Assembly: GCF_021390645.1 (NCBI RefSeq) | Contig: NZ_JAJEJT010000002.1 | Location: 558,001 to 622,000 of the forward strand | From: Paraburkholderia flagellata | GTDB taxonomy: Bacteria; Pseudomonadota; Gammaproteobacteria; Burkholderiales; Burkholderiaceae | DNA length: 64,000 nt | Direction: 5' to 3' | In this document: in pieces, positions 4,338 to 36,867 of the stretch | Layout: each line of letters begins with the position of its first letter | How positions within the stretch are numbered: position 1 is the first letter of the stretch | Translations under genes and position numbers: made by a program | Notes under the pieces: generated by a model | The model's database searches: none | The model's input: the letters and a program-made list of their open reading frames with translations, nothing else | Told to the model about the DNA's origin: nothing

Positions 4338-4510
4338 TTGCCCTCCCGGACCGTGTCCGACGACCAGCATCGCGCGTCACGACGCCAGCATCGACATGAT
4401 CAGCGGGCATCAGCTTCCCTCAATATAACGTGAACAAATACTGGTTTACCGACCGTTGACGGAATTGCGACGGTTGGCTACGGTGAAGTTTTCTTGCGAC
4501 AAACTCCGGT

Positions 4511-18349: not shown

Positions 18350-18384
18350 GACGCTCCTCGCGGTCCCACGTTGAGCACTACATT

Positions 18385-18401
18385 TCCGGTATTATCGAAG
18401 T
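18385..18401 (+). promoter_or_regulatory. Putative ArsR box upstream of arsO
   Basis: TCCGGTATTATCGAAGT fits the 17-bp pattern TCYRRNNTWATSGAART shared by four promoters in this window (also 28924, 29080 and 36759). It lies 35 bases before the arsO start codon, where a repressor would block transcription. Confidence 0.6.
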
Positions 18402-18435
18402 ATTGCGTCTCTGGCCGTAACTTGTCCAACGGAAA

Positions 18436-19515
18436 ATGTCACCGACCCTCACGACCGACGTTTGCGTTATCGGAGGCGGCCAGTCTGCGCTGGCCGTCGC
18501 CTATTTCCTGCGCCGCGCCTCTATCGGTTACGCCATTCTCGACGACCAGCCGGCGCCGGGCGGTGCCTGGCAGCATACCTGGGACTCGTTGCGCCTGTTC
18601 TCGCCAGCTCAGTGGAGTTCGCTTCCTGGCTGGCTGATGCCACCGGACACGGAAGAATACCCGTCACGCGAGCACGTAATCCGCTACCTCGCGGAGTACG
18701 AACGTCGATACCAGGTCCCCGTGCATCGCGCCGTCCGCGTTTCCTCGGTCGCGCGCTCAGACGCCGGACTTCTGGTTGAAAGCAGTCAAGGCACATGGCT
18801 CGCCCAGGCGGTCGTCAGCGCTACAGGCACGTGGGGGAACCCCTATATCCCGGAGTACCCGGGGCAGAGCTTTCACGGCAAGCAGATACATTCCGCGAAC
18901 TATAGGAACGCCGATGACCTGCGTGGGAAGAACGTACTCGTCGTCGGCGGTGGGAACTCAGGCGCACAGATACTGGCCGAGGTGTCGCAAGTCTGTAACG
19001 TCGCATGGGTTACCCTGGAAGAACCGCTGTTCCTGCCGGATGAAGTCGACGGCCGTGTTCTCTTCGAACGGGCGACGGCCAGATGGAAAGCGCGCAGCGA
19101 GGGGAAACCGGACCCCGCGCCTGTCGGTGGGCTTGGTGATGTCGTCATGGTCCAGAGCGTCAAGGAAGCTAGAGCCCGAGGTGTGCTCCACACGGTACGG
19201 CCTTTTTCACGCTTTGAGACCGATGGAGTCGTATGGTCGGACGGAGCGTTTTCACCCGTTGACTTCGTCATCTGGTGCACCGGATTTCGTCCTGCCCTCG
19301 ACCACCTCGATGCACTCGGCGTGCGCGAGAGCAATGGTCTAGTGGCGACCAACGGAACCCGGGCAACTCAGGAGCCGCGCCTCTGGCTGGTCGGCTACGG
19401 AGAGTGGACCGGCTTCGCTTCGGCGACGCTCATTGGCGTCATGCGTAGCGCGCGCGACACAGCCAACCAGATTGCGGAATATCTCAACTCAATTCGAGAA
19501 CGGAGTAGCTCATGA
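18436..19515 (+). CDS. arsO: ArsO-family flavin-dependent monooxygenase
   Basis: 359 residues. Two dinucleotide-binding motifs are visible: [15 protein letters not shown] at the N-terminus for FAD and [15 protein letters not shown] at about residue 170 for NADPH. Between them is the [11 protein letters not shown] segment typical of flavin-containing monooxygenases. Proteins of this type encoded in ars operons are named ArsO; their substrate is not settled. Its ATGA overlap with arsC shows translational coupling, so a role in arsenate/arsenite handling is likely. A putative ArsR box precedes it. Confidence 0.82.
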
Positions 19516-19940
19516 ACGTAACCATCTACCACAACCCCGATTGTGGGACATCGCGCAATACGCTGGCGATGATTCGAAACGCAGGCATCGAACCCACCAT
19601 CATCGAATACCTCAAGAATCCACCGTCACGCGACGAACTCGCTGAGCTGATTCAGAAGTCGGGACTGTCAGTGCGTGAAGTCGTGCGGCAGAAGGGAACG
19701 CCATACGCGGAACTCGGACTGGACGACCCGAGTGTTACGGATGACCAGTTGCTCGACGCCATGATCGAACATCCTATCCTCATTAATCGACCTCTCGTCG
19801 TGACGCCGCTAGGGGTGCGACTGTGCCGTCCGTCCGAAGTGGTGCTCGATATTCTTCCGGCACAGCAGAAAGGGGCGTTCACGAAGGAGGATGGTGAGGT
19901 CGTCGTCGACAGCGAAGGCAAACGCGTCAGCAAGTCCTGA
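19512..19940 (+). CDS. arsC: Arsenate reductase, glutaredoxin-coupled type
   Basis: 142 residues. The N-terminal [11 protein letters not shown] carries the catalytic Cys (residue 11, equivalent to Cys12 of plasmid R773 ArsC), which forms a thiol adduct with arsenate that is reduced with glutathione and glutaredoxin. The conserved [11 protein letters not shown] segment with its Arg is present, as is a second Arg near RLCRPSE. It overlaps arsO by four bases. This enzyme family is unrelated to the second arsenate reductase at 28363, so the island holds two reductases with different electron donors. Confidence 0.95.
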
Positions 19941-19957
19941 TTCCATTCGGGCGCACC

Positions 19958-20287
19958 CTATTGCGTGGGTGCGCCAGCGAGGACCCAAGTCAGCACGACT
20001 TGCAGGTCCGCATCGCTGATACCAGGATTGGGCGGCATGGCAACAGGTCCCCATGCACCGGCCCCGCCGCCTTTCACCTTTTTCATGAGAGCCGCCATCG
20101 CATCGGCGTCGCCTTTGTATTTGTGGGCGACGTCGCGATACGCTGGTCCGACCACCTTGTGGTCGACTGCGTGGCAACTGAGGCACATGTGCTGACCGGC
20201 GATAGCCTGCGCCTTTGCGGCGTCTATGCCTGCGAAGGCCGGAACGGCTGAAGACAGCGCAAGACCGGCGAATAACAAGCGCTTCAT
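19958..20287 (-). CDS. Class I c-type cytochrome, likely electron acceptor of arsenite oxidase
   Basis: 109 residues. A Sec signal peptide ends at AFAG; the haem motif CLSCH follows at about residues 35-39, and the axial Met is in MPPNPGISD near residue 84. Size and spacing match cytochrome c8/c551-type proteins. The gene lies directly downstream of aioA on the same strand, an arrangement seen in other arsenite oxidisers, where this cytochrome carries electrons from AioBA towards terminal oxidase. A strong terminator separates it from aioA, so its expression may depend on read-through. Confidence 0.9.
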   Translation of the reverse strand: MKRLLFAGLALSSAVPAFAGIDAAKAQAIAGQHMCLSCHAVDHKVVGPAYRDVAHKYKGDADAMAALMKKVKGGGAGAWGPVAMPPNPGISDADLQVVLTWVLAGAPTQ

Positions 20288-20313
20288 TGAGATTTTCCCT
20301 TGGGTGGGCGGAT

Positions 20314-20342
20314 AAAAAAACCGCCCGTCAACAACGGGCGGC
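20314..20342 (-). terminator. Intrinsic terminator between aioA and the cytochrome gene
   Basis: On the minus strand the stem CCGCCCGT/ACGGGCGG with a short loop is followed by an uninterrupted run of seven T. It lies immediately after the aioA stop codon and 27 bases before the cytochrome c start. Confidence 0.85.
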
Positions 20343-20353
20343 TCAAGGAGGAG

Positions 20354-22831
20354 TTAAACGAATCGGCGGCTCTTGAAGCTTACGGTCCGCGTGTAGTCTT
20401 CCATGCTGCCGACCCTACGCACATTGGCCCAGGTCCCCTTGTAGTAAGGGATGATGTTGCGGTCGGTCCAGTCAGTTGTGACGTCCCCCTGGATACCGTT
20501 GAAGTATCCGAAATTCATGAACGTCTGGTTCTGCTTGATTTCCTTCGCCGGATAGGCCATCGCGTACGTGGACCCGAAATCGTTGTAGACCTCAACGATG
20601 TCTCCGGGTGTTATCCCAAGCTCCTTCGCATCGTCGGGGTTTATCTCGAGATACGCCATCGGATAACGCGAGCGAACGAAATCGTTGTATTGGTCGTGGT
20701 AGGCCGTTTGCCAGATTTCATTGTTCCGGCCATTGTTTATCCAGAAGCGGTACTTGTCCTTCTGCTGCGCAACGGTCTTCGGAAGACCATTCCAGGGCGC
20801 AGGCTTGAACTGCGCCTTCCCGTCGGGTGTATCAAACTTCGAGTCGGTGTAAAGCATTTCCGTGCCTACGAGCTTGCCATCCGTATATGACTGCACCGGA
20901 AGCTGGACGCCGTTGTTGCCCGCCACGCGCAGACGCTCGTACGTAGCGAGGTTACCTGTCGGACCGCCCTGACTGTCTATCTTGGGGACGCCCGGCTGAC
21001 CCACCTGCCTGAACCCGTCGTTAAAGGCGTCTTCTTCCGTTTTCCAGTCGAAGCCGTCGAAGCGCGCTGCCATCTTCGAATTGCCTTCTTTTTGATACAT
21101 GGCCTTCAACGCGTTGGCCATGCGCGCTGCAATCAGCGCGTCCGGCATCGCACTACCCGGTGGGTCCATGAACTTCTGCGACAGACGCATCCGACGCTCA
21201 CCATTCATCGAGGTCAGATTGGTTTCACCGGGGTGCGCACCGGGCAGCATGAGGTGCGCAGCTTCAGCCAATTTTGTTGGATACAGGTTGACCGAGGCGA
21301 CAAACAGACCACCATTGCTCGTCGCGTCGAAGATGGCATCGACCAATTGTTCGTCGTTCGCGCCCCTCGCTTTCTGCATCGCTTCCTTCACGATTTGGGA
21401 GCGCTTTAGCACCGCCTCACGCAACGCTTCCGCATTGTTGCTCGTCTGGAAGTTGTTGCAGGCCCACCAGGTCATGACACGACCCTTGCCATGAATGAGT
21501 TCCTGGTCGATGTAAATCTTCGTGTTGCCCGGATAGGGTGGTCTTGTGTAACCTTCCTGGTGGCCGCCCATGCGAACCACGCCAGTTCCGCGACGCCCAA
21601 CGTTGTGCGTCGCGAGTACAAGGTCTACGAGCGCGGACTGAATCAGGTAATTGTCGTTGCCCCAGATGATGCCTTTCTCGTAGGCGTGCATGGTTCGGGG
21701 TGACTGCCCGGACGCCTTGGGTTTGTAAGCCCATTCCGCTGCGGTGCGCAGCTTCTCGACGGGGACTCCGGTCACCTTGCTCGTCTCCTCGAGCGTCATG
21801 TGATTCGTTTTCACCGCGTCGTCGAAGCCATTCGTGTGCTGGCTGATGAAGTCGCGGTCAATCCAGCCTTGCGAAACGACGTATGTGAAAAGACCATCGA
21901 AGAGCGCGACATCGGTGCCCGGCTGGATATCAAGATGGAGAACGTTGCCAGCACTCGCGACCTGCTCGGCAACTGCGATAGTCGGTGTCCGGCGCGGGTC
22001 GACGAAAATGATTCTCGTGACGGGCGTGGCTTCTCCGGGGAAGTGCTGCTTCTTCTTGTTGCTGGTCGCTCCCTGGAGGTTGGGGACCCAGTGATTCAGG
22101 AAGTAGTTCGTCTGCGTCTCATACGCATTGTTGCCAATCGCCATGATGACGTCAGCAAGCTCCGCGTCTTCGTACGAATTGTTCAATTCGCCGATGCCCA
22201 TCTCGCGCGTGGCGTGGCACTCGGAGTTATAAGCAGGCCGATTGTGGATGCGCACCATCGGCGTCTGGAGCGCCGTGAACATGAGCTTGCCCGTCGCCCA
22301 GGTGTTTTCGAATCCGCCGCCGGCACCACCGTGGTCGAACGCGGAAAACACGATGCCGTTTGGACCGTCCTTGTCGAGCGTCCGCTTGAGTAGCCCCGCG
22401 TAAATCTTCATCGCGCGGTCCCAGTCAGTATCGACCCACTGGTCACCCACATACAGGCGAGGATTGAGTAGCCGTTCGTGTGTCACGCCGTTCGCGTTGT
22501 ACATGTACGTGGCCATCTTCCCGCCACGCGTCGAACTGAGCCCGCTATTCACGACACACTGCTTGTCCGGAACAATCATGATGTTGTGGCGCGTGCCATC
22601 CGCGTCAGTCACCACGTTTGTCATTGCGGGCGTCAGCGTCACCGCAAGTGGCGGGAGCTGTTTGCGGTAGTCGAGCCCCAGCGCATTCTCATTGGGTGCA
22701 CGCCCACCCTCGGTTCCTTCCGGCCATTTGAACACGTGGTATCCGCATCCAACGATGCAGAAGTGGCAGGTCATGTTTGTGCGTTGCGCGCCAACGGGTG
22801 GCAGCGTGATACGGTCGCCCTTGTTGTCCAT
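20354..22831 (-). CDS. aioA: Arsenite oxidase large (molybdopterin) subunit
   Basis: 825 residues, the usual family length. AioA is the catalytic subunit of periplasmic arsenite oxidase, a bis-MGD molybdenum enzyme of the DMSO reductase family that oxidises As(III) to As(V). The [3Fe-4S] motif is CHFCIVGC (Cys 22, 25, 29) with Ser instead of a fourth Cys (GLSSTRGG near residue 100), as in known AioA. The arsenite-pocket residues are conserved: His196 and Glu204 in HNRPAYNSE, and Arg plus His in RMGGH. There is no signal peptide; export relies on the Tat signal of AioB. GGAGGA precedes the ATG, 11 bases after aioB. Confidence 0.98.
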
Positions 22832-22842
22832 GGTCTCCTCCG

Positions 22843-23367
22843 TTACAGCACGTTTGCCTGACGGCCGTACAACATGCCTTCAATGCCGGTCGCGGTGATA
22901 CGTCCGCTCTTTTCGTCATAGGAAAGCAGAATGCGGGGCAGGTTTTCGGTCGCCTGGCCGGCAATCATCTGCCCACCCTTTTCAGCGTCGAACATGCTGT
23001 AGTGGCACCCGCACTTGAATATGTTCGTACCAGCGTCAAACGCGACGGGACATCCCATGTGCGTGCACATCATGCTGAAGGCGACGATGTCGCGGTTCGG
23101 TCCAACGCCTCCCGGGGCTGCGTTCCCGAGCTTGACCGCCACACACGGCGAAGCAGCGTCGGGATAGCTGAATTGCAGTGGCGCGCCTTGTGTGAGCTGT
23201 CCGACTACGGCGACAGCTTTTCGCGGATAAGGCAAAACCGTGTGACTCGTGTCTGGTGTTGCGGTTGGCGCGGCAGATACCGGATGAGAAATCGCGGCAG
23301 CCGTTGCCGCTACGCTTCCTCCGCTTAGCTTGAGGAACGTGCGGCGGGATATGGTGTTGTTGGACAT
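22843..23367 (-). CDS. aioB: Arsenite oxidase small (Rieske) subunit
   Basis: 174 residues from the ATG at 23367, preceded by AAAGGAG. The N-terminus has a Tat signal ([11 protein letters not shown]) and a hydrophobic segment ending in SHPVSAA; this exports the folded AioBA complex. The Rieske [2Fe-2S] ligands are in CTHMGC and CGCHYS, and both loops keep the extra Cys that can form the stabilising disulfide. The subunit passes electrons from the AioA iron-sulfur cluster to a c-type cytochrome. It leads aioBA and is preceded by a sigma-54 promoter. Confidence 0.97.
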
Positions 23368-23418
23368 GCCAGCTCCTTTAAGCCTGTTTGGGCGGTTGGT
23401 TCTATCGGAGCAGCAAAC

Positions 23419-23433
23419 GCAACCTCCATGCCA
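23419..23433 (-). promoter_or_regulatory. Sigma-54 (-24/-12) promoter of aioBA
   Basis: On the minus strand TGGCATGGAGGTTGC matches the -24/-12 consensus TGGCACG-N4-TTGC with one difference and correct GG-N10-GC spacing. It lies 52 bases upstream of the aioB start codon. The neighbouring regulator AioR has the GAFTGA loop needed to contact sigma-54. A 13-bp palindrome GGGGTATAACCCC lies just upstream (23437-23449). Confidence 0.85.
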
Positions 23434-23533
23434 CAGGGGGTATAACCCCGCGTGGCGCGGCACAGAATGATTCGACTACACTGGAGATGTAGTTATAAGT
23501 TCCGGGTTGGTAACGGACTGAGGGGACCAGACA

Positions 23534-24424
23534 ATGTCGGGGTTACCGTTTAGTAACACGCGACGAACACTTGTTCACGCGGTCGGCGCTGGATTGGCGC
23601 TTGCCGCGTGCGCTTCGGCGCGCCATGCGCTTGCTGTACCGCAGCAGAAGTTGCTGTTCGGAACCACAGCCGTCTTTCTCGACAATCAAGTGCGGCTTCT
23701 GTCGAAGTGGCGTGCGTATCTCGAATCACGCCTTGAACAGGAGGTTCACTTCGTTCAACGAGGAAGCTACGGCGAAATCACGGAGTTACTGCTCGCGGAC
23801 CAGATAGATATCGCCTGGGTTTGCGGCTATCCCTACGTCACTCACGCTGACCGGATGAAACTGCTTGCCGTGCCGCAGTACCTGGGCAAGCCGCTTTATC
23901 AGTCGTATCTCATCGTTCCGAAATCTGACGAAGCGGTCACGACTATCACTGAGTTGAGGGGGCAGGTGTTCGCATACAGCGACCCGCAATCCAACTCAGG
24001 CTATCTTGTGCCCCGCACGGAACTCATACGAAATGGCATCGACCCCAGGCGATTCTTCAGCAAGGCTTTCTTCACATTTGCACACAGGAAGGTAGTAGAA
24101 GCCGTTTCCTCCGGGCTCGCATCTGCAGGCGAAATCGATGGCTACGTTTACGACACGATGGTGAAGCAGCTACCGGATTCAGTGTCGAACGTGAAGGTAG
24201 CCTGGAAGTCACCACAGTACGGGTTTCCGCCGCTCGTGGCGCGCAAGAGTATCTCAATCGAGACATTTGCTCGCGCTCAGCTTTGCCTGCTATCCATGAC
24301 TGAGGATAAAGACGGAAGGGAGTTGCTTCACTATTTAAATCTCGACCGGTTCGTCATTGGCGATGACCACCTGTTCGATGGTATTCGGGGCCTCGTCAGA
24401 ATCTCTGACACGATGCCGACGTGA
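23534..24424 (+). CDS. aioX: Arsenite-sensing periplasmic binding protein AioX
   Basis: 296 residues of the PhnD/phosphonate-binding-like fold. AioX binds arsenite in the periplasm and signals through the histidine kinase AioS. An N-terminal export signal is present ([20 protein letters not shown]), with a possible lipobox at LAAC. The Cys in WVCGYPYV (residue 97) corresponds to the Cys shown to be required for As(III) sensing in Agrobacterium AioX. It is divergent from aioBA and followed after seven bases by aioS. Confidence 0.93.
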
Positions 24425-24431
24425 GACGAAG

Positions 24432-27253: not shown

Positions 27254-27254
27254 A

Positions 27255-27278
27255 AACAGGCCGCCGGAGCGACCTGTT
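27255..27278 (-). terminator. Hairpin terminator between aioR and acr3
   Basis: AACAGG-C-CGC-loop-GCG-A-CCTGTT forms a nine-pair stem with one internal mismatch. On the minus strand it is followed by TTTTC, so it best serves the acr3 operon; it may also stop aioR transcripts. Confidence 0.6.
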
Positions 27279-27286
27279 GAACGCGA

Positions 27287-28360
27287 TCACGACGCGCGTT
27301 GATACCACCGTCGAGACCCGTTGACGACCTTGACCACCGCGAGCATCACCGGTACTTCAATGAGAACGCCAACGACCGTCGCGAGAGCCGCGCCGGACTT
27401 GAGTCCGAACAGGCTAATCGCCGTTGCAACTGCCAGCTCAAAGAAGTTCGAAGCACCAATCAGGCAGGACGGTGCAGCGACGTCATGAGAGACGCCGAGC
27501 TTCCGGTTGGCAAGATAAGCAAGCGAAGAATTGATGATGACCTGAATCAGGATAGGCACTGCAAGCAGCACGATGACGAGGGGCTGCGCGATGATTTGCT
27601 CGCCCTGGAACGCGAACAGGAGCACCAGCGTCAAAAGCAGCGCGGTTATCGAGAACGGGCCAATCTTTGCCAGTGCGCGCTGGAAGTTCAGTTCTCCCTT
27701 TGCGAGCAGCATCTTGCGCAGGAGCTGCGCGATGATGACCGGGATGACGATGTAGAGCACCACAGAGGTGAGCAGCGTATCCCAGGGCACTGTAATGTTC
27801 GAGATGCCAAGCAACAGGCCAACGATAGGCGCGAATGCAAAGACCATAATCAGGTCGTTCAGCGCTACCTGCGAAAGCGTGAAGTACGGGTCACCTTTCG
27901 TGAGCTGGCTCCACACGAACACCATCGCCGTACACGGTGCCGCTGCGAGCAGAATCAAGCCCGCGACGTAGCTGTCCAGCTGGTCAGCCGGGAGCATGGC
28001 GGCGAAGGCATGGCGTATGAACAGCCATGCGAGGAAGGCCATCGTGAAGGGCTTTACCGCCCAGTTGATGACCAGCGTGACTCCAATACCTTTCAGCTGG
28101 TTACGCACCTTGCCCAGCGAGGCAAAGTCGATGCGCAACAGCATCGGGATAATCATGACCCAGATAAGGACGCCGACCGGGATGTTGACGTGGGCGAATT
28201 CGAGTCCAGACACCGAATGAACGGTACCGGGCAGCAGCTTGCCAAGGACAATACCCGCGACAATGCAGAGCGCGACCCAGACCGACAGGTATCGTTCGAA
28301 GAAACCGATTCTGCCCGCCTGGCGTTCAGCTGGCTTTCCGACGGTTTGGCTATCCGACAT
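27287..28360 (-). CDS. acr3: Arsenite efflux permease Acr3
   Basis: 357 residues with ten membrane segments, the length and topology of the Acr3 (BASS superfamily) arsenite carrier, not ArsB. The conserved Cys in AAAPCTAMVFVWS (TM4), shown to be essential in characterised Acr3 proteins, is present, as is the APSCLIGASNFFELAVA segment. It exports As(III) using the proton motive force. It begins two bases after the LMW-type arsenate reductase gene, so arsenate reduced by that enzyme is handed to this exporter. Confidence 0.96.
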   Translation of the reverse strand: MSDSQTVGKPAERQAGRIGFFERYLSVWVALCIVAGIVLGKLLPGTVHSVSGLEFAHVNIPVGVLIWVMIIPMLLRIDFASLGKVRNQLKGIGVTLVINWAVKPFTMAFLAWLFIRHAFAAMLPADQLDSYVAGLILLAAAPCTAMVFVWSQLTKGDPYFTLSQVALNDLIMVFAFAPIVGLLLGISNITVPWDTLLTSVVLYIVIPVIIAQLLRKMLLAKGELNFQRALAKIGPFSITALLLTLVLLFAFQGEQIIAQPLVIVLLAVPILIQVIINSSLAYLANRKLGVSHDVAAPSCLIGASNFFELAVATAISLFGLKSGAALATVVGVLIEVPVMLAVVKVVNGSRRWYQRAS

Positions 28361-28362
28361 CG

Positions 28363-28878
28363 TTACTCTCCCTTCTCGCGCAGCTCTGTGCCGATACTTT
28401 GCATCTCCTGCTGAACAGCAATGCGGTCGAGCTTTTCGAATGGCAGATTGACGAAGAGTTCGATGCGCTTGCGCAACTGGATGTATGCCTCCAGAAAAGC
28501 GTGGCGCTTCTCTTCGTCACTACCTTCTACCCTCGAAGGGTCGGGTACGCCCCAGTGAGCCTTTGCCGGATGACCTGGCCAAATCGGGCAAACCTCCCCG
28601 GCGGCATCGTCGCAAACCGTGAAGATGAAGTCGATATGCGGTGCACCGTCCTGCGCAAACTCGTCCCAGCTCTTGCTGCGCAGACCCTCGGTCGCGACGT
28701 GCTGGGAACGCAGCAGCTCGATTGCGTACGGGTTGGGAGCCGAGCCTGGGTGGCTGCCAGCGCTATAGGCGACGAATCGGTCGCCGGCAAGCGCGTTGAG
28801 CGCGCCCTCAGCGAGAATCGAGCGCGCCGAGTTATGCGTGCACAGGAAAAGGACGTTGTACTTGCGATGTTCGGTCAC
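28363..28878 (-). CDS. arsC2: Arsenate reductase, low-molecular-weight phosphatase type
   Basis: 171 residues if translation begins at the GTG at 28878, preferred because GGAG lies seven bases upstream; an ATG at 28908 would add ten residues. The phosphatase-like loop LCTHNSARS holds catalytic Cys13 and Arg. Two further Cys (89 and 97, in TVCDDAAGEVCP) provide the disulfide cascade of thioredoxin-type arsenate reductases. The sequence HWGVPDPS carries the general-acid Asp. It is the first gene of the arsC2-acr3 operon and has an ars-type operator upstream. The symbol is only a local label. Confidence 0.92.
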   Translation of the reverse strand: MTEHRKYNVLFLCTHNSARSILAEGALNALAGDRFVAYSAGSHPGSAPNPYAIELLRSQHVATEGLRSKSWDEFAQDGAPHIDFIFTVCDDAAGEVCPIWPGHPAKAHWGVPDPSRVEGSDEEKRHAFLEAYIQLRKRIELFVNLPFEKLDRIAVQQEMQSIGTELREKGE

Positions 28879-28923
28879 GAAAATTCTCCGTTCTATGGGC
28901 GTGGCCATTTTTAAATCGACATC

Positions 28924-28940
28924 TCCAATATAATCGAAAT
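28924..28940. promoter_or_regulatory. Putative ArsR box upstream of arsC2-acr3
   Basis: TCCAATATAATCGAAAT, read on the plus strand, is the best representative of the 17-bp motif shared with the arsO, pstS and arsH promoters. It is 46 bases upstream of the GTG start of the minus-strand arsC2 gene. Confidence 0.65.
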
Positions 28941-29028
28941 GTCGTAGCGTCACAAGTTCAGGACCGGAATGATGCGCCCATTGCGCGGGCCGTTGGCCAG
29001 CGTCACAGAAAATTCACAATGAACGCCT

Positions 29029-29044
29029 TGTCACCTGTTTGTCA
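29029..29044 (+). promoter_or_regulatory. Pho box upstream of pstS
   Basis: Two TGTCA half-sites start exactly 11 bases apart (TGTCACCTGTTTGTCA), the spacing of PhoB direct repeats. A weaker CGTCAC half-site lies further upstream at 29001. The PhoB encoded at the end of this operon is the obvious ligand. Confidence 0.8.
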
Positions 29045-29079
29045 CGAACTATACTTACTCTCCCGACAGTCGTAACGTA

Positions 29080-29096
29080 TCTAGAGTTATCGAAAT
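29080..29096 (+). promoter_or_regulatory. Putative ArsR box upstream of pstS
   Basis: TCTAGAGTTATCGAAAT matches the 17-bp ars motif, sharing ATCGAAAT with the arsC2 site. It lies between the Pho box and the pstS start, so the operon may be under both phosphate and arsenic control. Confidence 0.55.
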
Positions 29097-29124
29097 AACG
29101 TTTGCGCTATCGAGGATGACCGTG

Positions 29125-30144
29125 ATGAACAGACTATTCGTGCGACGTTTGGCGGTTGCGTTGGCCATCGGAGGTTCCGTTGTTGTCGCCCACGCCACCG
29201 AAATCACCGGAGCGGGCTCAACATTCGTGTACCCCGTTCTGTCCAAGTGGTCTTCGGACTACAACCAGGCATCCGGCAACAAGGTCAACTATCAATCTAT
29301 TGGCTCTGGCGGTGGCATCGCCCAAATCAAGGCCGCCACTGTGGACTTCGGCGCGACCGACATGCCGCTGTCCGTCGCCGAGCTCAAGAACAGGTACATG
29401 GGCCAATTCCCGTCAGTCATTGGCGGCGTCGTTCCCGTTGTGAATATCGATGGCGTCGCGCCAGGAAAACTGCGCTTCACTGGCCCCCTGCTCGCCGACA
29501 TCTATCTCGGGAAAATTACGAAGTGGAACGACCCGGCAGTTGTAAAAATCAACCCGGACCTGAAGCTACCTGACGCCAACATCACCGTGGTCCATCGTTC
29601 AGATGGGTCGGGTACTACCTTCAACTGGGTGAACTATCTCTCGAAAGTTAGCCCCGAGTGGAAAGACAAAGTCGGTGAAGGCACTTCCGTCTCCTGGCCA
29701 GTGGGTGTAGGAGGCAAGGGCAATGAAGGCGTTGCGGCTTATGTGGGCCGCCTGAAAAACTCTCTCGGCTACGTCGAGTACGCGTACGTTCTCCAGAACA
29801 AGTTGACCTACGCGGCCGTGCAGAACAAGGCGGGCAACTTCATCGAACCCAGTGCGAAATCGTTCCAGGCCGCTGCTGCGACTGCCGACTGGAGCAAGGC
29901 TGAGGATTTCGACCTCGTCATGACTGACGCGAGTGGCCCCGATTCCTACCCCATCACGGCGACGACATTCATCGTGATGTACAAGCTGCCGAAGAACGCG
30001 GCCCAGTCGAAGGCGACTCTGGACTTCTTCAGGTGGGCGCTGGAGAAGGGGCAGGCACAGGCCCAGTCGCTAGACTATGTGCCGTTGCCCGACGCATTGG
30101 TCAAGCAAATCGAATCTTACTGGTCGAAGAACTTCAAGTTCTGA
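29125..30144 (+). CDS. pstS: Phosphate-binding periplasmic protein PstS
   Basis: 339 residues from the second ATG, which has GAGG nine bases upstream; an ATG three codons earlier is the alternative. A signal peptide ends in VVAHA and the mature protein starts TEITGAGSTFVYPVLSKW, the PstS hallmark. Phosphate-binding loops are visible as AGSTF, GSGGGIAQIKA, TDMPLS and RSDGSGTTFNW. It delivers phosphate to PstCAB. Arsenic islands often carry their own pst copy, and some PstS variants discriminate strongly against arsenate; that property cannot be read directly here. Confidence 0.96.
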   Translation: MNRLFVRRLAVALAIGGSVVVAHATEITGAGSTFVYPVLSKWSSDYNQASGNKVNYQSIGSGGGIAQIKAATVDFGATDMPLSVAELKNRYMGQFPSVIGGVVPVVNIDGVAPGKLRFTGPLLADIYLGKITKWNDPAVVKINPDLKLPDANITVVHRSDGSGTTFNWVNYLSKVSPEWKDKVGEGTSVSWPVGVGGKGNEGVAAYVGRLKNSLGYVEYAYVLQNKLTYAAVQNKAGNFIEPSAKSFQAAAATADWSKAEDFDLVMTDASGPDSYPITATTFIVMYKLPKNAAQSKATLDFFRWALEKGQAQAQSLDYVPLPDALVKQIESYWSKNFKF

Positions 30145-30204
30145 AGTCCGGGAATTCGACGCGATACATAACTACGATTTTGTGTGGCCGGCTCAGGAGA
30201 CGCG

Positions 30205-31233
30205 ATGCCGACAACTGCCGACGAACTGGCAACGGATGTGCCGGACGCGCGCAAGGGTTCCTTGCCTGCGACGGAGCTGACATTCAGAAGTCGCAGGCGC
30301 TGGTTACCTGATGCGACAGCGGACCGCCTGTTCCGGTTGGCGGCCGCTGCAGCAGCGATATCTGTACTTGTTCTGCTGTCCGGGGCTGCATTGTCAATGA
30401 TGTGGGGCGGCCGGCTCGCCTTCATGACGTTCGGTTGGCATTTTCTGGTCAGCCCGGACTGGAACGCTGTCACTCACAGGTTCGGCGCACTGATTCCGAT
30501 CTACGGGACGCTCGTCAGCTCGCTCCTCGCTCTCGTCATTGCGGTACCCGTCAGCTTCGGCATCGCAATGTTCCTCACTGAAATCGCGCCACGCTGGATG
30601 AAGGGCGCAGTCGGCACGGCGGTGGAGTTGCTCGCAGCTATCCCGAGCATTATTTACGGCATGTGGGGCTTGTTCGTCCTCGCGCCTGTTCTCGCCGACT
30701 ACGTTGAGCCGTGGCTCATCAATGCGTTCGGCAACGCTCCGCTGATTGGCCGCCTGTTCTCGGGTGCGCCTATTGGCCTCGGCATGCTTCCGGCAGGCCT
30801 GATTCTCGGCATCATGGTTATTCCCTTTATCACGGCTGTAACGCGGGACGTCTTCTCGGCGACGCCGCAGATACTGAAGGAGTCGGCGTTCGCGCTCGGG
30901 GCGACTCGCTGGGAGGTTATGCGAAAGGTTGTCCTCCCTTATACGAGGTCAGCGGTCATAGGGGCGATTTTCCTCGGGCTCGGCCGCGCGCTGGGGGAAA
31001 CGATGGCGGTCACGTTCGTACTTGGGAATTCACATGACTTCAGCGTCTCGTTGCTCGACCCGAGCAATTCCATAGCGGCAACACTTGCCAACGAATTCAC
31101 CGAAGCGGACTCACCCATCTACCTTTCCTCGCTTATCGCATTGGGTTTCGTTCTGTTCGTGGTTACTTCCATCGTGCTGGCGTTCGCGAAACTGCTGCTA
31201 TTGCGCCTCAGGCGCCTTGAGGGGGCACAGTGA
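30205..31233 (+). CDS. pstC: Phosphate ABC transporter permease PstC
   Basis: 342 residues from the ATG with GGAG five bases upstream; an in-frame GTG seven codons earlier is less likely. Six membrane segments and the cytoplasmic permease loop (FALGATRWEVMRKVVLPYTR, EAA-type motif) are present. It forms the membrane channel with PstA. It is followed by pstA with a GTGA overlap. Confidence 0.95.
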   Translation: MPTTADELATDVPDARKGSLPATELTFRSRRRWLPDATADRLFRLAAAAAAISVLVLLSGAALSMMWGGRLAFMTFGWHFLVSPDWNAVTHRFGALIPIYGTLVSSLLALVIAVPVSFGIAMFLTEIAPRWMKGAVGTAVELLAAIPSIIYGMWGLFVLAPVLADYVEPWLINAFGNAPLIGRLFSGAPIGLGMLPAGLILGIMVIPFITAVTRDVFSATPQILKESAFALGATRWEVMRKVVLPYTRSAVIGAIFLGLGRALGETMAVTFVLGNSHDFSVSLLDPSNSIAATLANEFTEADSPIYLSSLIALGFVLFVVTSIVLAFAKLLLLRLRRLEGAQ

Positions 31234-32090
31234 CGCAGACCTTTGACATGGCGAAGCTCCGCCGCCGACGGCTAGCCAACAACATCGTGTTCCTGCTCTC
31301 GGTTCTGTCGACCGCGTTTGGCCTCTTCTGGCTGTTCTGGATTCTCGGGACGACAGTCGTCAACGGGTTTGAAGCGCTGGGGCCCAGCCTGTTCACACGA
31401 ATGACGCCACCAGCGGGAGAGAACGGAGGCCTCCTCAACGCGCTGTATGGAAGCTTCCTCATGATTGGCATCGCTGCGCTCATCGGTGTGCCACTGGGGC
31501 TGATGGCCGGCATCTTTCTCGCTGAATACGCGCGCAGTACACGTCTGGGTAGCGTCATTCGATTCGTCACGGACATCCTGATGAGCGCGCCCTCGATTGT
31601 CATCGGCCTGTTCACCTACGAACTCATCGTCCGTCAGCTTGGGCATTTTTCCGGCTGGGCAGGTGCCGTCGCATTGGCCATCATCATGTTGCCCGTGGTT
31701 ATCCGGACGACGGACGAGATGCTCCAGCTCATTCCCGACAGCGTGCGTGAAGCAGCGCTCTCCCTCGGACTTCCACGTTGGAAAGTCAGCTCACGCATCC
31801 TCGTGCGGGCTGCGAGCGCGGGCATTGTCACTGGCGCGTTGCTGGCTGTCGCGCGCATCAGCGGCGAGACGGCACCACTTCTATTCACGGCACTGAACAA
31901 CCAATACTGGTCGACTACTCCGAACGGACCTCTGGCCAGCATTCCCGTCGTTATCTTCCAGTTCGCGATGAGCCCTTACCAGGCATGGCACGCACTTGCC
32001 TGGGCCGGTGCGTTCCTCCTGACGCTGTTCGTTCTCGCACTGGCCATCGTTTCCCGTACCGTTTTCAACCGCGCCCATGCCTCAAGTTGA
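31230..32090 (+). CDS. pstA: Phosphate ABC transporter permease PstA
   Basis: 286 residues starting at GTG inside the pstC stop (GTGA). Six membrane segments and the EAA-type loop ([19 protein letters not shown]) mark the second permease subunit. The C-terminus overlaps the start of pstB by 14 bases, so all transporter subunits are translationally coupled. Confidence 0.95.
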
Positions 32091-32865
32091 GATGCCATCC
32101 GCCAGGGCGAGCAACGTGCGTATCAGCGTGCGCGACCTGAATTTCCACTATGGGCGTCGCCAGGCACTGTTCGACGTCAGCGTGGACTTTCCCGACCGTG
32201 AGGTGACTGCCATCATCGGCTCGTCGGGATGCGGAAAGTCGACGCTGCTCCGGGTCTTAAACAGGATGTACTCCATTTATCCGGACCAGGTCGCAACGGG
32301 CACCGTTGAACTCGAGGGCAGGAACATCCTTGCCGATGACTTCAAGCTCAACGAGCTACGGCTCAAGGTCGGCATGGTGTTCCAGAAACCCACTCCGTTC
32401 TCGATGCCGGTATACGACAACGTCGCGCTGGCGATTACACATCACGAGAGGCTCAGGCGAAGCGAACTCGATGAGCGGGTGGAGTTCGCTCTACGACAGG
32501 CGGCGCTGTGGGATGAGGTCAGAGACAAGCTTGACCAGAGTGCGCTCGCACTTTCCGGCGGTCAGCAACAACGTCTTTGCATCGCGCGTGCGCTTGCGAT
32601 TGGGCCGGAAGTGCTCCTGCTCGACGAGCCGACATCTTCCTTGGACCCGATTTCGGCTGGCAGGATTGAAGAGTTGCTCATCGAGCTTCGCAAGCACTAC
32701 ACCGTGGTCATCGTGACGCACAACATGCATCAGGCGGCCCGGTTGTCGGAGCACACCGCGTTTATGCATATGGGCCGAGTTGTCGAATTCGGCACAACGG
32801 AGCGGATTTTCGCAAAGCCCTCACAGAAGGCGACGGAAGACTATGTCACGGGCCGATTCGGCTAG
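32077..32865 (+). CDS. pstB: Phosphate ABC transporter ATPase PstB
   Basis: 262 residues. Walker A is GSSGCGKST, the Q loop is MVFQKPTPF (diagnostic of PstB), the signature is LSGGQQQR and Walker B is [13 protein letters not shown] with a downstream switch His (VTHNMHQA). It energises PstCA on the cytoplasmic side. The start is slightly early relative to many PstB proteins but has no better alternative. Confidence 0.97.
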
Positions 32866-32873
32866 GAGTCAAC

Positions 32874-33596
32874 ATGACGACAAAGCACCTTTCCACACAG
32901 TTCGACGCCGACCTGGATGCTGTTTCAGACCAGCTCATGGAGATGGGTGGTCTCGTCGAACAACAGATTGTGCGCGCGATGCGCGCGTTTGCTGAACTCG
33001 ATAGCACTGCAGCAGAGCAGGTCATCGAGGACGAGCATCTGGTCAACACGATGGAGATTGAGATTGACCAGGAGATTGGCAACGTCATCGCACGTCGTCA
33101 GCCCGCAGCCGGAGACCTCCGGCTACTGATGGCGACGTCCAAAACAGTCACCAACCTCGAACGCGTTGGAGACGAAGCCCGAAAAATTGCAAAGCGAGCA
33201 GTGCGCATCGTCGACGAAGATGTCACGAGGTGTATCGACGTTGCCGATATCAGGGTGGCCGGAGAACTGGCAATCGGCATTCTGCGCAGGGCACTTGATG
33301 CGTTCTCCCGCCTTGACGCGACATCGGCCGCACAGATTGTCCGCGACGATGAAGCCATTGACGAACTGTTCAGGGCGTTTGCGCGGAAGCTCATCGGCTA
33401 CATGGGTGAAGACCCCCGGTGCGTCAGGGTGGGGCTTGATTGCCTCTCTATTGCGAAGGCCATCGAACGTATTGGCGACCATGCGAAGAATATCGCGGAG
33501 TTCGTCATCTACGTTGTGAGTGGTACGGACGTGCGACACGTGCCGAGAGACACGCTTTACCGCGAAGCCGAAGGCGCTGACGAACAGGAAGAGTAA
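32874..33596 (+). CDS. phoU: Phosphate signalling regulator PhoU
   Basis: 240 residues with AGGAG before the ATG. PhoU is a two-repeat three-helix-bundle protein that restrains Pst transport and PhoR/PhoB signalling when phosphate is ample. Both repeats carry the metal-binding acidic motif (ERVGDEARKIAKRA and ERIGDHAKNIAEFV). It lies between pstB and phoB, and its stop codon directly abuts the phoB ATG. Confidence 0.95.
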   Translation: MTTKHLSTQFDADLDAVSDQLMEMGGLVEQQIVRAMRAFAELDSTAAEQVIEDEHLVNTMEIEIDQEIGNVIARRQPAAGDLRLLMATSKTVTNLERVGDEARKIAKRAVRIVDEDVTRCIDVADIRVAGELAIGILRRALDAFSRLDATSAAQIVRDDEAIDELFRAFARKLIGYMGEDPRCVRVGLDCLSIAKAIERIGDHAKNIAEFVIYVVSGTDVRHVPRDTLYREAEGADEQEE

Positions 33597-34325
33597 ATGC
33601 CAGCCAGCATTCTTATTGTCGAAGACGAGCCCTCCATCCTGGAGCTGTTGTCTGCAAATGCCCGACATGCAGGCTTTTATCCAATGGAAGCGCCCGATGT
33701 GCCTGCTGCTCGAACACTGCTGAGCGAAGTGCTACCGGACCTGATTGTGCTCGACTGGATGTTACCAGGCATATCGGGAATCGCATTTCTACGAGAGTTA
33801 CGCACCGACAGCCGCACAAAAGACGTGCCCGTCATCATGGTGACCGCTCGCGCCGACGAAGACGACTCCATTAGCGGGCTCGAGGCCGGTGCCGATGACT
33901 ACGTTACCAAGCCGTTTTCGCCAAAGGAGCTGATGGCGCGCGTCAAGGCCGTTCTCCGACGCCTACCGCCTGACCTCGAGAGCAGTTCGGTCACCGTCGA
34001 CGGTTTGACTCTGGACCCCGCGACACGACGCGTATATACGACACGAGATGGCACCGAGCAACGGCTCCATTTGGGACCGACCGAGTTCCGCCTTCTCCAC
34101 TTCTTCATGACGCGGCCGGAACGTGTTCATAGTCGCCGTCTCGTTCTTGAACAGGTGTGGGGCACTGACGTGCCCGTTGTGGAGAGAACGGTGGACGTGC
34201 ACGTCAAGCGGCTTCGCGACGCGTTGAAGCCAGCCGGGTATGACACCTTCATTGAAACGGTGCGTGGAAGCGGCTACCGGCTGTCGAGGATAGCAACGGC
34301 CCGGCATTTAAAGAGTGCCGCCTAG
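33597..34325 (+). CDS. phoB: Phosphate regulon response regulator PhoB
   Basis: 242 residues of the OmpR/PhoB class. The receiver domain has the acidic ED pair at residues 9-10 and phosphoacceptor Asp53 (VLDWMLPG); the C-terminal winged helix contains LGPTEFRLLHFFMTRPERV and ERTVDVHVKRLR. The TAAATG junction couples it to phoU. No phoR kinase gene follows, so it must rely on a PhoR encoded elsewhere or another kinase. The Pho box upstream of pstS suggests autoregulation of the whole operon. Confidence 0.95.
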   Translation: MPASILIVEDEPSILELLSANARHAGFYPMEAPDVPAARTLLSEVLPDLIVLDWMLPGISGIAFLRELRTDSRTKDVPVIMVTARADEDDSISGLEAGADDYVTKPFSPKELMARVKAVLRRLPPDLESSSVTVDGLTLDPATRRVYTTRDGTEQRLHLGPTEFRLLHFFMTRPERVHSRRLVLEQVWGTDVPVVERTVDVHVKRLRDALKPAGYDTFIETVRGSGYRLSRIATARHLKSAA

Positions 34326-34370
34326 CAAGGGCGAATTTTTCGCCGATGCGACGCGCCTTGGAACGCAAAG

Positions 34371-34670
34371 TTGACACCCGTGAAAGCGACCCGACACCAT
34401 GCAGCACAACCCCGCGCCGGCTCTTCGGACCAGCAGGACGCGCAGACAGCCCGTGGTCGCGGGTATGGCCGCTATCTGTTCTGGGGATGGCTCCGGCTGG
34501 TACTGGGAATCGCCCAGATGGCGCTCGTGGGTGCCGCTGTCGTCGCATTCCTGTACGGCGGAGTGTCCGACGTGACCGTCGGCTGTTTCCTGGCCGCAAG
34601 CGCCGCCACGCTGCTCAGCCGCGTTCTCTACCATGGTCGCCATCAACCTGATGGCGACCAGGAACCGTAA
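34371..34670 (+). CDS. Small membrane protein of unknown function
   Basis: About 99 residues from TTG, or 96 from the GTG at 34380. After a polar N-terminus there are two hydrophobic segments (LVLGIAQMALVGAAVVAFLY and VGCFLAASAATLLSRVLY) and a short basic His-containing tail. It lies between phoB and arsR inside the arsenic island, so a link to phosphate or arsenic transport is possible. I do not recognise a family. Confidence 0.55.
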   Translation: MTPVKATRHHAAQPRAGSSDQQDAQTARGRGYGRYLFWGWLRLVLGIAQMALVGAAVVAFLYGGVSDVTVGCFLAASAATLLSRVLYHGRHQPDGDQEP

Positions 34671-34744
34671 CCATGCTGTCCTTGTCGCACCTTTGTCGTC
34701 TTGTCAGGTTTAGAATACCCGGCTAACTCAAGCGACTACGTACC

Positions 34745-35092
34745 ATGAAGGAAAAGGACGCAATCAAAGCTCTGTCTGCGTTGGCCCAGCCGACGCGCCT
34801 TGCGATTTTCCGCCTGCTCGTCACGGCCGGCCCGGACGGACTGAGCGTGGGCGTTATCCAGGAGTCACTGGACCTTGCAAGCGCCACCTTGTCGTTCCAT
34901 CTGAAGGAGTTGACGCACTCCGGTCTCGTGTCTTCTCGTCAGGAAGGGCGCTTTGTGTACTACGCGCCCGAGATTGAGCAAATGAATGACCTTGTCGGTT
35001 TTCTCACGGAGAACTGCTGCCAGGGCGTGGATTCGGCTGCGTGCACGCCGAAGAAAAAGGTCAAATGCAAGCCTAAGGCCGTTCCTGCCTGA
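34745..35092 (+). CDS. arsR: ArsR-family arsenic-responsive repressor
   Basis: 115 residues with the ArsR winged-helix core (LAQPTRLAIFRLLVTAGPDG, ATLSFHLKELTHSGLV). It lacks the classical ELCVCDL metal site in the DNA-binding helix; instead it has a C-terminal vicinal pair Cys91-Cys92 and Cys100, the arrangement of Acidithiobacillus-type ArsR. As(III) binding there should release it from ars operators such as those at 18385, 28924, 29080 and 36759. It is followed by a bidirectional terminator. Confidence 0.93.
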   Translation: MKEKDAIKALSALAQPTRLAIFRLLVTAGPDGLSVGVIQESLDLASATLSFHLKELTHSGLVSSRQEGRFVYYAPEIEQMNDLVGFLTENCCQGVDSAACTPKKKVKCKPKAVPA

Positions 35093-35121
35093 CTGATTCG
35101 GCAGGGATTGGCGTAAAAAAT

Positions 35122-35142
35122 TGGCCGCCCCAGGGGCGGCCA
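35122..35142. terminator. Bidirectional intrinsic terminator between arsR and arsI
   Basis: TGGCCGCCCC-AG-GGGCGGCCA is a nearly perfect nine- to ten-pair hairpin. T-rich DNA follows on the plus strand and a run of six T on the minus strand, so it can end both convergent transcripts. Confidence 0.8.
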
Positions 35143-35158
35143 TTTATCTTTCAATCTC

Positions 35159-35626
35159 TTAACAGCAACTGGATTTTCGCGGAATCGTTGCAGGGATGGA
35201 GGTCGTCGGCATGCAGCAGGCTCCGCCTTGCTCCGATGCCGTCTGGCTATCCGCACCATAGAGGGGAATGTTCCCCAGCGTGTGCCAGGTTTCCCATGGC
35301 ACGCCCGCCGGGTCCTTTGCCCAATATTTGTTCGACGATGCGTAGCAGCACTGCGCACCGCGCTGGTCAACGACGTCCAGGCTCGCCGCAAACGCCTGCT
35401 CGCGTAGCGACGAAAGTTCTTCGTCACTGTCGACCTGGAAGCCGAGGTGGTTCACACCGGTTGCACCGCTTCTGGCCGAAATTGCGAAATTGACGCGCGG
35501 GTCCTCCAGCATCCACTTGGCGTAGTCGTCCTTGAGCACAGTCGGCTCAGCTCCGAAGAGACCAGTGTAGAAGCGCACACTTTCGTCGAGCTTCGGCACC
35601 ACAACATGTACATGGAATCGCTTCAT
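35159..35626 (-). CDS. arsI: ArsI/CadI-family VOC metalloenzyme (putative C-As lyase)
   Basis: 155 residues of the vicinal oxygen chelate (glyoxalase/dioxygenase) fold. ArsI is an Fe(II) dioxygenase that cleaves the C-As bond of trivalent organoarsenicals. Candidate metal ligands are His5 (KRFHVHV), His60 (VNHLGFQV) and Glu112 (VPWETW). The vicinal pair Cys93-Cys94 in GAQCCYASSNKYW matches the organoarsenical-binding pair of ArsI. Extra Cys near the C-terminus (ACCMP, KSSCC) also fit CadI-like proteins. It directly abuts arsR2 (TAAATG). Confidence 0.87.
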   Translation of the reverse strand: MKRFHVHVVVPKLDESVRFYTGLFGAEPTVLKDDYAKWMLEDPRVNFAISARSGATGVNHLGFQVDSDEELSSLREQAFAASLDVVDQRGAQCCYASSNKYWAKDPAGVPWETWHTLGNIPLYGADSQTASEQGGACCMPTTSIPATIPRKSSCC

Positions 35627-35956
35627 TTACGCCTCCGTTTCGTTGGAAGGGCAGGCGCATTCCTGCGCTGCGCAACAGTTTTCGAGCAAAAAGTCGATGA
35701 GTGCCTGCATGTTGTCGTAGTTGGCGCTGTAGATGACGTGCCTTCCCTGTGAGCGCCCCTCAATCAGGCCAGCGTGACTTAACTCTTTCAGATGGAAGGA
35801 CAGGCTCGGCGCGGGCATGTCGAGTGCCTCGGCTATGGCACCTGCACTCATGCCGGGTGGCCCTGCCGTAACGAGCAGGCGAAAAGCGGCAAGACGGGAT
35901 TCCTGTGCGAGCGCCGCAAGCGCCGTTACAGCCAGTTTCGTGTCGATGGTGGCCAT
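35627..35956 (-). CDS. Second ArsR-family repressor
   Basis: 109 residues, clearly related to the ArsR at 34745 (LAQESRLAAFRLLVTAGPPG, SLSFHLKELSHAGLI). Its metal site is also C-terminal: Cys94-Cys95 with Cys100 and Cys102. It lies between arsH and arsI in one operon. Two similar repressors within 1.2 kb suggest either redundancy or division between inorganic and organic arsenicals. Confidence 0.92.
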   Translation of the reverse strand: MATIDTKLAVTALAALAQESRLAAFRLLVTAGPPGMSAGAIAEALDMPAPSLSFHLKELSHAGLIEGRSQGRHVIYSANYDNMQALIDFLLENCCAAQECACPSNETEA

Positions 35957-35962
35957 GACGAT

Positions 35963-36730
35963 TTACTCGAGCTCTTCCTGTTCCGACGCTTCGTCCAGAC
36001 CCATCGCCAGGGACGCAAGGTCGCTCTTCGGGTCGAGTGGCCGGTCGGCTTCGACACGCTCGCTGTAGCGGTCGACGAGGTAATCCGCGCGCCCACGAAG
36101 CAGCAGCGTGAATTTCACCAGTTCCTCCATCACATCGACCAGCCGGTCGTAGTACGACGACGGTTTCATCCGTCCGGCTTCGTCGAACTCCTCGTACGCC
36201 TTCGCAACTGACGATTGGTTGGGGATGGTGAACATGCGCATCCAGCGCCCGAGCTGACGTAGCTGGTTCACCGTATTGAACGACTGGGACCCGCCGCTGA
36301 CCTGCATGACTGCGAGCGTTCGTCCCTGGGTAGGACGAATGCCCCCCATCTCCAGAGGCAACTGGTCAATCTGCGTCTTGATGATTCCCGAAATCGTGCC
36401 GTGACGTTCCGGGCTGCACCATACGTGTCCCTCGGACCAGAGGGACAACTCCCGCAACTCCTTGACCTTGGGGTGGTCGTTGCCTTCGACAGCATCGGGA
36501 AAAGGCAGACCGAGTGGGTCGAAGATGCGGGTCTCGGCACCGAACAACTGGAGCAGACGGGCGGCTTCCTCGACAAGGAGGCGCGAATACGAGCGCTTGC
36601 GAAGGGAGCCATACAGCAACAGGATGCGGACCGGCGAGGCGTCGGGCATACCGAGTCGGGCTGCAATGGATGTGTCCAGAAAATCCGGCTTCGCGGCGGG
36701 GAACGTCGAAGAATTCACGAGGGTAGTCAT
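35963..36730 (-). CDS. arsH: ArsH NADPH-dependent FMN reductase / organoarsenical oxidase
   Basis: About 255 residues. The flavodoxin-like FMN-binding motif is [15 protein letters not shown], and the protein keeps the long N- and C-terminal extensions of ArsH rather than of plain NADPH-FMN reductases ([41 protein letters not shown]). ArsH oxidises trivalent methylated and aromatic arsenicals to less toxic pentavalent forms. It starts the arsH-arsR-arsI operon and has a putative ArsR box 29 bases upstream. The ATG at 36730 is used; a GTG just before it is possible. Confidence 0.94.
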
Positions 36731-36758
36731 CACGGTGTATCAGCTAATCTTCAATGAT

Positions 36759-36775
36759 TCCAAGTTTATGGAAAT
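36759..36775. promoter_or_regulatory. Putative ArsR box between arsH and the MFS gene
   Basis: TCCAAGTTTATGGAAAT fits the shared 17-bp motif and is itself partly palindromic (ATTCC/GGAAAT). It sits in the divergent promoter region, 29 bases from arsH and 93 from the MFS gene, so it could serve both directions. Confidence 0.6.
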
Positions 36776-36867
36776 ATCAAAGAATTGCAAGTAGAATCGA
36801 TTCATCGAGCGACTGCGTCGCAGCGACGCACCCACCCTAATCAGGGCCGCACCACAGGTGGTACGAC

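Follow-up and report, generated by a model that had tools for sequence, protein, structure and literature searches.

Arsenate mimics phosphate, which makes the coupling of phosphate uptake to arsenic stress in arsenite oxidisers a standing question. In the accessible text of a study of Agrobacterium tumefaciens 5A, the repressor ArsR1 represses pstS1 without arsenite, and the purified protein is reported to bind twice in the region between pstS1 and phoB1, two genes with starts 363 nt apart (PMC7965956). Repression of an island-borne pst operon by ArsR is thus already known from Agrobacterium. As far as that text goes, the operator behind this link is left unresolved, as three MEME motifs are described, none of them fitting a 12-2-12 repeat (PMC7965956). 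The accessible part of another report describes AioF of Thiomonas, a member of the ArsR/SmtB family, which binds upstream of aioB (PMC7533571). The present analysis concerns 64,000 nt of Paraburkholderia flagellata (contig NZ_JAJEJT010000002.1, positions 558,001 to 622,000; the window), which carries an arsenic island with its own pst-phoU-phoB operon. Its promoters contain a palindrome that is, with a probability of roughly 0.88, the operator of AfArsR-type repressors (ArsRa, ArsRb or both) released by arsenite, which would make the ars and pst genes one regulon. The sequence evidence establishes the sites and how well these are conserved, as well as their link to this type of ArsR and the Pho-type box at the pst promoter. 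A defined 24-bp operator, conserved in several genera, opens the ArsR-pst link to testing by point mutation.

An initial annotation had aligned four 17-bp sites upstream of arsO-arsC, arsC2-acr3, the pst operon and arsH-arsRb-arsI. All four 17-mers stand exactly where it placed them (18385, 28924, 29080 and 36759), and their consensus finds no match in 100 shuffles of the window. With up to two mismatches, the window still yields only these four, while shuffles then average 1.46. Because this consensus was fitted by eye to the same four sites, proof has to come from independent tests. The motif is real at the four promoters, but the conserved unit is longer and extends to an imperfect palindrome of 24 bp, ACATNTCCRRTA followed directly by TTATSGAAATGT. 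Thirty sites from seven islands, including those of the window, share this palindrome with its 12-bp arms, and arm pairing peaks at a single centre (mean 5.9 of 10 pairs, versus 1.7-4.2 at other centres). These dimensions agree with the 12-2-12 operators of the SmtB/ArsR family, with a spacer of 0-2 bp depending on how the arms are counted. Since the unit is a palindrome, the orientation of a site carries little meaning. A 24-bp matrix built from the seven islands found one site scoring at least 12 in 1 Mb of random sequence. By this matrix all four annotated sites are strong, but the list was incomplete, as a weaker fifth site lies in the aioB-aioX region (Table 1). The site at 36759 is upstream of arsH, as proposed, but it also adjoins a divergent arsK-like gene of the major facilitator superfamily (MFS) and may serve both; a plus-strand, promoter-like -35 element occurs in this intergenic region at 36769.

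Related islands provide an independent test. When 299 genomes of the family were searched with the PstS of the window, proteins 73-100% identical were found in seven genomes, the present one included, with a second copy in two of them; the next best among the matches listed were at most 60% identical. Among 250 genomes of the order, no PstS at least 65% identical was listed beyond the window's own. The core order arsC2 / pst-phoU-phoB-arsRa / arsI-arsRb-arsH / arsK is kept in five of the six other islands, the sixth (G261) being differently built; aioXSR was not found in G165 and G129, nor acr3 in G129. A matrix made solely from the four window sites detects sites at the arsC2, pstS and arsH promoters in all five of these islands. 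The arsO site is present in G239 and G104, with none as strong in G165, whose arsO follows aioBA. The arsC2-pstS unit is duplicated in G239 and G104, and both operators are kept in each copy. In the Burkholderia peredens record (L052) and in Caballeronia glebae (L053), arsRa takes the place of pstS, 140 bp from the arsC2 operator, and the fetched stretch contains no pst genes. A gammaproteobacterial locus, from Dyella sp. AtDHG13 (L057), has a pstS 73% identical with a site at 6133-6156, 50 bp upstream, scoring 19.4.

Scanning other islands had been proposed as a check of the motif, and the four-site 17-mer matrix separates island-type pstS genes (6/6) from the others (0/23). It scores at least 20.6 upstream of all six other island-type pstS genes (seven of seven with that of the window) and at most 11.1 upstream of the 23 non-island-type genes. 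Once 13 further order-wide pstS genes are added, the upstream regions of all 36 non-island genes score at most 13.4 with the 24-bp matrix, for which the seven island pstS upstreams were training data. The weak site at 13.4 belongs to G510, whose pstS is 64% identical and has no match to a window ars gene within 36 kb. Across 12 arsC2-pstS intergenic regions (a count that leaves out L144, L145b, L051_1230 and L057), mean pairwise identity is 89.3% for the arsC2 operator, 86.0% for the pst operator and 83.4% for the Pho box with its -10 element, versus 47.8% for the spacer. The recurrence of the sites at equivalent promoters, together with operators 86-89% identical against 48% for the spacer, bears out the earlier proposal of a single regulon. 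The predicted ArsR operator stands at ars and island pst promoters alike, as would be expected of a pst regulon of the Agrobacterium type.

Both repressors contain the ArsR/SmtB winged-helix domain (NF033788, above cut-off), and the best solved relative of each is AfArsR (PDB 6J05). Their C-terminal tails, ENCCQGVDSAAC and ENCCAAQECAC, include the three C-terminal cysteines of AfArsR (Cys95, 96 and 102 in that protein), and the annotated C-terminal cysteine sites are indeed present, as both proteins end NCC...C and have no ELCVCDL site. The association of the palindrome with such repressors was followed in the 80 highest-ranking of at least 584 ArsRa relatives, a sample that leans to close relatives; 75 of these loci lie outside islands, with L050-L054 left out as island members, and counts ignore kinship. 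At 66 of the 75 loci an ars gene is preceded, at no more than 250 bp, by a 24-mer scoring at least 15 (at least 20 at 57); the gene is arsRa in 48 cases, arsH in 12, arsC2 in five and arsRb in one. At 44 loci the best arsR-proximal site occupies one identical offset and ends on the arsR start codon; where a site overlaps the ATG, its last two letters are set by the start codon, which gives a slight gain in score. Control segments away from mapped genes reached 15 in one of 2132 stretches of 160 bp and in five of 3251 stretches of 250 bp, and none reached 20.

The same pattern is seen across this genome of 9,002,095 bases. In the genome scan suggested by the initial annotation, the exact 17-mer consensus has five matches against none for its reversed control, which speaks against chance. 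The fifth exact match (C5:473942) falls inside a coding open reading frame (ORF; L006:7591-8493) and was judged to be chance. A 20-mer pattern with three mismatches gave 14 rows (13 places) versus one in the control, the arsH window site not being among these matches. Of these places, those scoring at least 20 with the 24-mer matrix are three window sites and two other ars operons (C2:357502 and C3:204977), each combining a strong operator with a similar AfArsR-type arsR. The best of the lower-scoring places (17.9 and 14.2) lie inside predicted ORFs, and a site scoring 16.1, beside another pattern match, immediately precedes an unrelated regulator-like ORF. Eighteen HTH_5 genes were found among the 150 of 300 first-look candidates that were scored, and the AfArsR tail is present in four of these genes. 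Two of the four stand alone outside the island, and each begins at an operator (29.4 and 30.3); arsRa and arsRb, without an operator directly upstream, lie within or after operator-bearing clusters. Upstream of the 14 other ArsR/SmtB-domain genes the best score is 10.1. Because the palindrome tracks AfArsR-type arsR genes both elsewhere and in this genome, its ligand is very probably an ArsR of this type, and the earlier suggestion of ArsR as ligand is much strengthened by this sequence association. As two further ars operons have a like arsR and operator, four AfArsR-type repressors may share about seven operators here. With these operons and the fifth window site, the regulon is probably wider than first stated.

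The architecture of the divergent arsC2 and pst promoters suggests how the operator could act. In Pho regulon promoters a pair of TGTCAY-type repeats with an 11-bp period precedes the -10 element by a few bp, and the region 29028-29055, with its predicted -10, has this layout. The PhoB-type box, judged by conservation and layout, is the sole match in the window, where none is expected, and it is conserved in the islands. On the minus strand, the arsC2 promoter has a promoter-like -35 at 28955 and a -10 ending at 28927. At arsC2 the operator overlies the predicted -10 element, so that repression there is probably by occlusion. At pst it follows the predicted start site and probably blocks the operon from downstream, while expression would also require PhoB. 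The pairing of a PhoB-type box with an operator suggests joint control of pst by low phosphate and arsenite, resembling the scheme given for Agrobacterium in the accessible text of PMC7533571.

We infer binding, arsenite release and this combined logic as follows. Without arsenite, the arsO-arsC, arsC2-acr3, pst-phoU-phoB and arsH-arsRb-arsI promoters would each have their 24-bp palindrome occupied by an ArsR dimer, with weaker occupancy perhaps also at the aio promoter. Arsenite bound at the C-terminal NCC...C cysteines would free ArsR from the operator. Genes such as arsC2 would then be expressed, as the predicted -10 would be uncovered, and the pst operon, with its probably PhoB-dependent promoter, would need both activation by PhoB at low phosphate and loss of ArsR. 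ArsRa is perhaps partly transcribed with the pst cluster, which would create feedback.

The promoter of the arsenite oxidase genes aioBA (23419-23557) combines a sigma54-like TGGCAT...TTGC with two GTTAC-type palindromes, which are presumably AioR-type sites. The fifth operator lies between these palindromes (23499-23514 and 23542-23557) and the sigma54-like -24/-12 element (23419-23433). With the 17-mer matrix it scores 12.2 and is not separated from scores of 12.8 and 12.5 elsewhere in the window. Because this site is decayed or absent in relatives (degenerate in two, which score 10.0, and missing from five others with a similar layout), its function is uncertain; it is also absent from Hydrogenophaga L150. 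A chance origin of this site is unlikely. Among islands in which no aioXSR was found in the stretch, four of five have sites of at least 15 upstream of aioB (G165, G129, L148 and L149; 16.4-29.3, about 110-135 bp upstream), that of L149 being common to a divergent arsR; the fifth, Nitrobacter L153, reaches only 12.6. These sites allow a broader and more tentative reading, on the doubtful side of even, in which one ArsR palindrome in alpha-, beta- and gammaproteobacterial loci would join arsenic resistance, high-affinity phosphate uptake and, in places, aio in a single regulon under the control of arsenite. The pst promoter would be a two-input gate, switched on by PhoB and off by ArsR. In this strain aioBA would have a repressor site between its AioR enhancer and its sigma54 promoter, which would place an oxidase that responds to arsenite sensed in the periplasm under the added control of ArsR in the cytoplasm. 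Two points weigh against this reading, namely the score of only 12.6 in L153 and the failure of the 17-mer matrix to set the fifth site apart.

Alphaproteobacterial loci extend the comparison. Aio-plasmid loci L143-L145 and 13 more (L146-L158), from 40 records listed, were examined, and nine of the 13 contain a site of at least 15; L150, L152, L157 and L158 have none. The islands of pSinA (L146), A. tumefaciens CFBP6624 and Rhizobium Q54 share the same sites with the same spacing, and their four sites of at least 15 all fall at arsR, in phnD-arsR (two) or in pstS1-phoB1 (10633-10656 of L146), the last being the region for which double binding of Agrobacterium ArsR1 is reported (PMC7965956). 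The starts of pstS1 and phoB1 are separated by 364 nt in pSinA. ArsR-type sites also lie between phnD and arsR at 4248-4341 of the pSinA locus, and phosphonate uptake may therefore belong to the alphaproteobacterial regulon as well.

Several rival explanations were weighed against an ArsR operator shared by ars and pst. Chance resemblance of four AT-rich promoter segments might be suspected of a 17-mer fitted by eye, but all independent tests (genome, pstS, ArsR loci, alphaproteobacterial islands and conservation) contradict it; for the four strong sites this origin is refuted and its probability is negligible. The palindrome could also be bound by another regulator near arsenic genes, for example the PhoB or AioR encoded in the island, given that the pst site adjoins a Pho-type box. 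However, 66 of the 75 loci carry the palindrome at an ars promoter, although only three of the 75 stretches matched any window pstS, pstC, pstA, phoU, aioA, aioB or aioX; sites of the PhoB and AioR types stand apart from it and differ in architecture, and within this genome the palindrome accompanies AfArsR-type arsR genes, which leaves this explanation very improbable. Slightly easier to entertain, though still unlikely, is an ArsR site that is genuine at ars and without effect at pst, owing to its position past the start site or to dominance of the Pho box. The pst operator begins about 13 bp after the predicted start, unlike that of arsC2, and it is the weakest of the four strong sites (23.7). 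Against this, its conservation comes close to that of the arsC2 operator, each copy of the arsC2-pstS unit doubled in G239 and G104 retains it, and the repression of pstS1 by ArsR1 described for Agrobacterium in the accessible text of PMC7965956 offers a precedent.

The regulon favoured here, with AfArsR-type repressors acting at ars and pst, also has points that count against it. Nine of the 75 ArsR-relative loci have no site of at least 15, and in the window no operator lies directly upstream of arsRa (best -14.4), although three relatives have weak sites there (12.7-16.8). Co-transcription of arsRa with pst is doubtful because, besides having no operator of its own, arsRa begins only some 420 bp beyond phoB, whose end is overlapped by a terminator-like hairpin (34319-34333). 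The Pho-box pattern is hardly enriched genome-wide (six matches versus two in the control), and none of the six lies at the other pstS places on C1 and C3. In the alphaproteobacterial islands only one of the two expected pstS1-phoB1 sites is strong (26.7), the other reaching 6.4. Since the pst operons of the NT-26 (L152) and Ensifer E-60 (L151) aio plasmids have no site, the ArsR-pst link is not universal. AfArsR-like ArsRs of Paracoccus bind a different sequence, according to the accessible part of PMC9137774, and their operator scores -39.5 with the 24-bp matrix.

The genes downstream of the sites are named in agreement with NCBIfam, as the initial annotation had them, with arsC2 and the arsK-like gene below the model cut-offs; the arsC2 start was chosen from relatives. 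Between phoB and arsRa lies a possible 99-aa gene (34371-34670) without a Pfam match, overlapped by an ORF at 34346 without an NCBIfam match.

Table 1. Predicted operators, promoter elements and genes of the arsenic island, in window positions ("left out", score with the window's own sites removed from the matrix).
Feature	Position	Strand	Remarks
ArsR-type operator, arsO-arsC promoter	18380..18403		17-mer core 18385-18401; score 29.5, 28.8 left out
arsO	18436..19515	+	NF040505
arsC, glutaredoxin type	19512..19940	+	TIGR00014
Weaker fifth ArsR-type operator, aioB-aioX region	23467..23490		score 18.4, 17.7 left out; next best in window 6.1
acr3	27287..28360	-	TIGR00832
arsC2, thioredoxin-type arsenate reductase	28363..28878	-	TIGR02691, 68.8 bits vs cut-off 174.3
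ArsR-type operator, arsC2-acr3	28919..28942		covers predicted -10 of minus-strand promoter; score 34.8
Upstream Pho-like repeat GTCACAGAAAATTCACA	29002..29018	+	83.5% identity, 12 intergenic regions
PhoB-type box TTGTCAC-N4-TTGTCAC	29028..29045	+	11-bp period; overlaps predicted -35
Predicted -10 TATACT, pst promoter	29050..29055	+	10/12 promoter match with TTGTCA at 29028
ArsR-type operator, pst operon	29075..29098		about +13 to +37 from predicted start site; score 23.7, 22.8 left out
pstS, island type	29125..30144	+	TIGR00975; conserved ATG at 29125 from alignment
pstC, pstA, pstB, phoU, phoB	30184..34325	+	NCBIfam
arsRa, AfArsR-type repressor after pst cluster	34745..35092	+	
arsI	35159..35626	-	NF041414
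arsRb, AfArsR-type repressor	35627..35956	-	
arsH	35963..36733	-	TIGR02690
ArsR-type operator between arsH (-) and arsK-like MFS (+)	36754..36777		score 25.6, 23.9 left out
arsK-like MFS transporter	36868..38169	+	NF033733, 188 bits vs cut-off 400

If the proposed regulon is correct, arsenic exposure switches on arsenic resistance and phosphate uptake together, and a simple rule is offered, with pst and, in some islands, aioBA under ArsR. The operator also lets ArsR regulons be read from genomes. No open-access publication describing this operator at pst was found in the accessible texts. New in this analysis are the operator and its spread, together with the layout of the PhoB-ArsR promoter and the sites at aio.

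Among known systems, Agrobacterium 5A is similar in placing ArsR over a second, island-borne pst-phoB set, here as predicted from sequence, and the matching regions of pSinA and CFBP6624 (which were compared in place of the 5A sequence) contain one strong site; the CFBP6624 arsR product has the tail ECCGG...C. Unlike the 5A system as given in its accessible text, a single palindrome here accounts for the regulon, the island is betaproteobacterial, phoB lies inside the pst operon and arsC2 is divergent. AfArsR of Acidithiobacillus ferrooxidans (6J05) shares the NCC...C cysteines of both ArsRs, a comparison of proteins and not of operators. AioF of Thiomonas binds only with arsenic present, in the accessible text of PMC7533571, and its likeness to the aioB sites described here is one of position only. 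The Pars1 and Pars2 promoters of Pseudomonas putida, as far as the accessible text of PMC7994332 describes them, likewise have an imperfect inverted repeat over the -10 element and show cross-talk between ars operons, as proposed here. Their operators score -10.6 and -8.6 with the present matrix and thus belong to a different sequence class.

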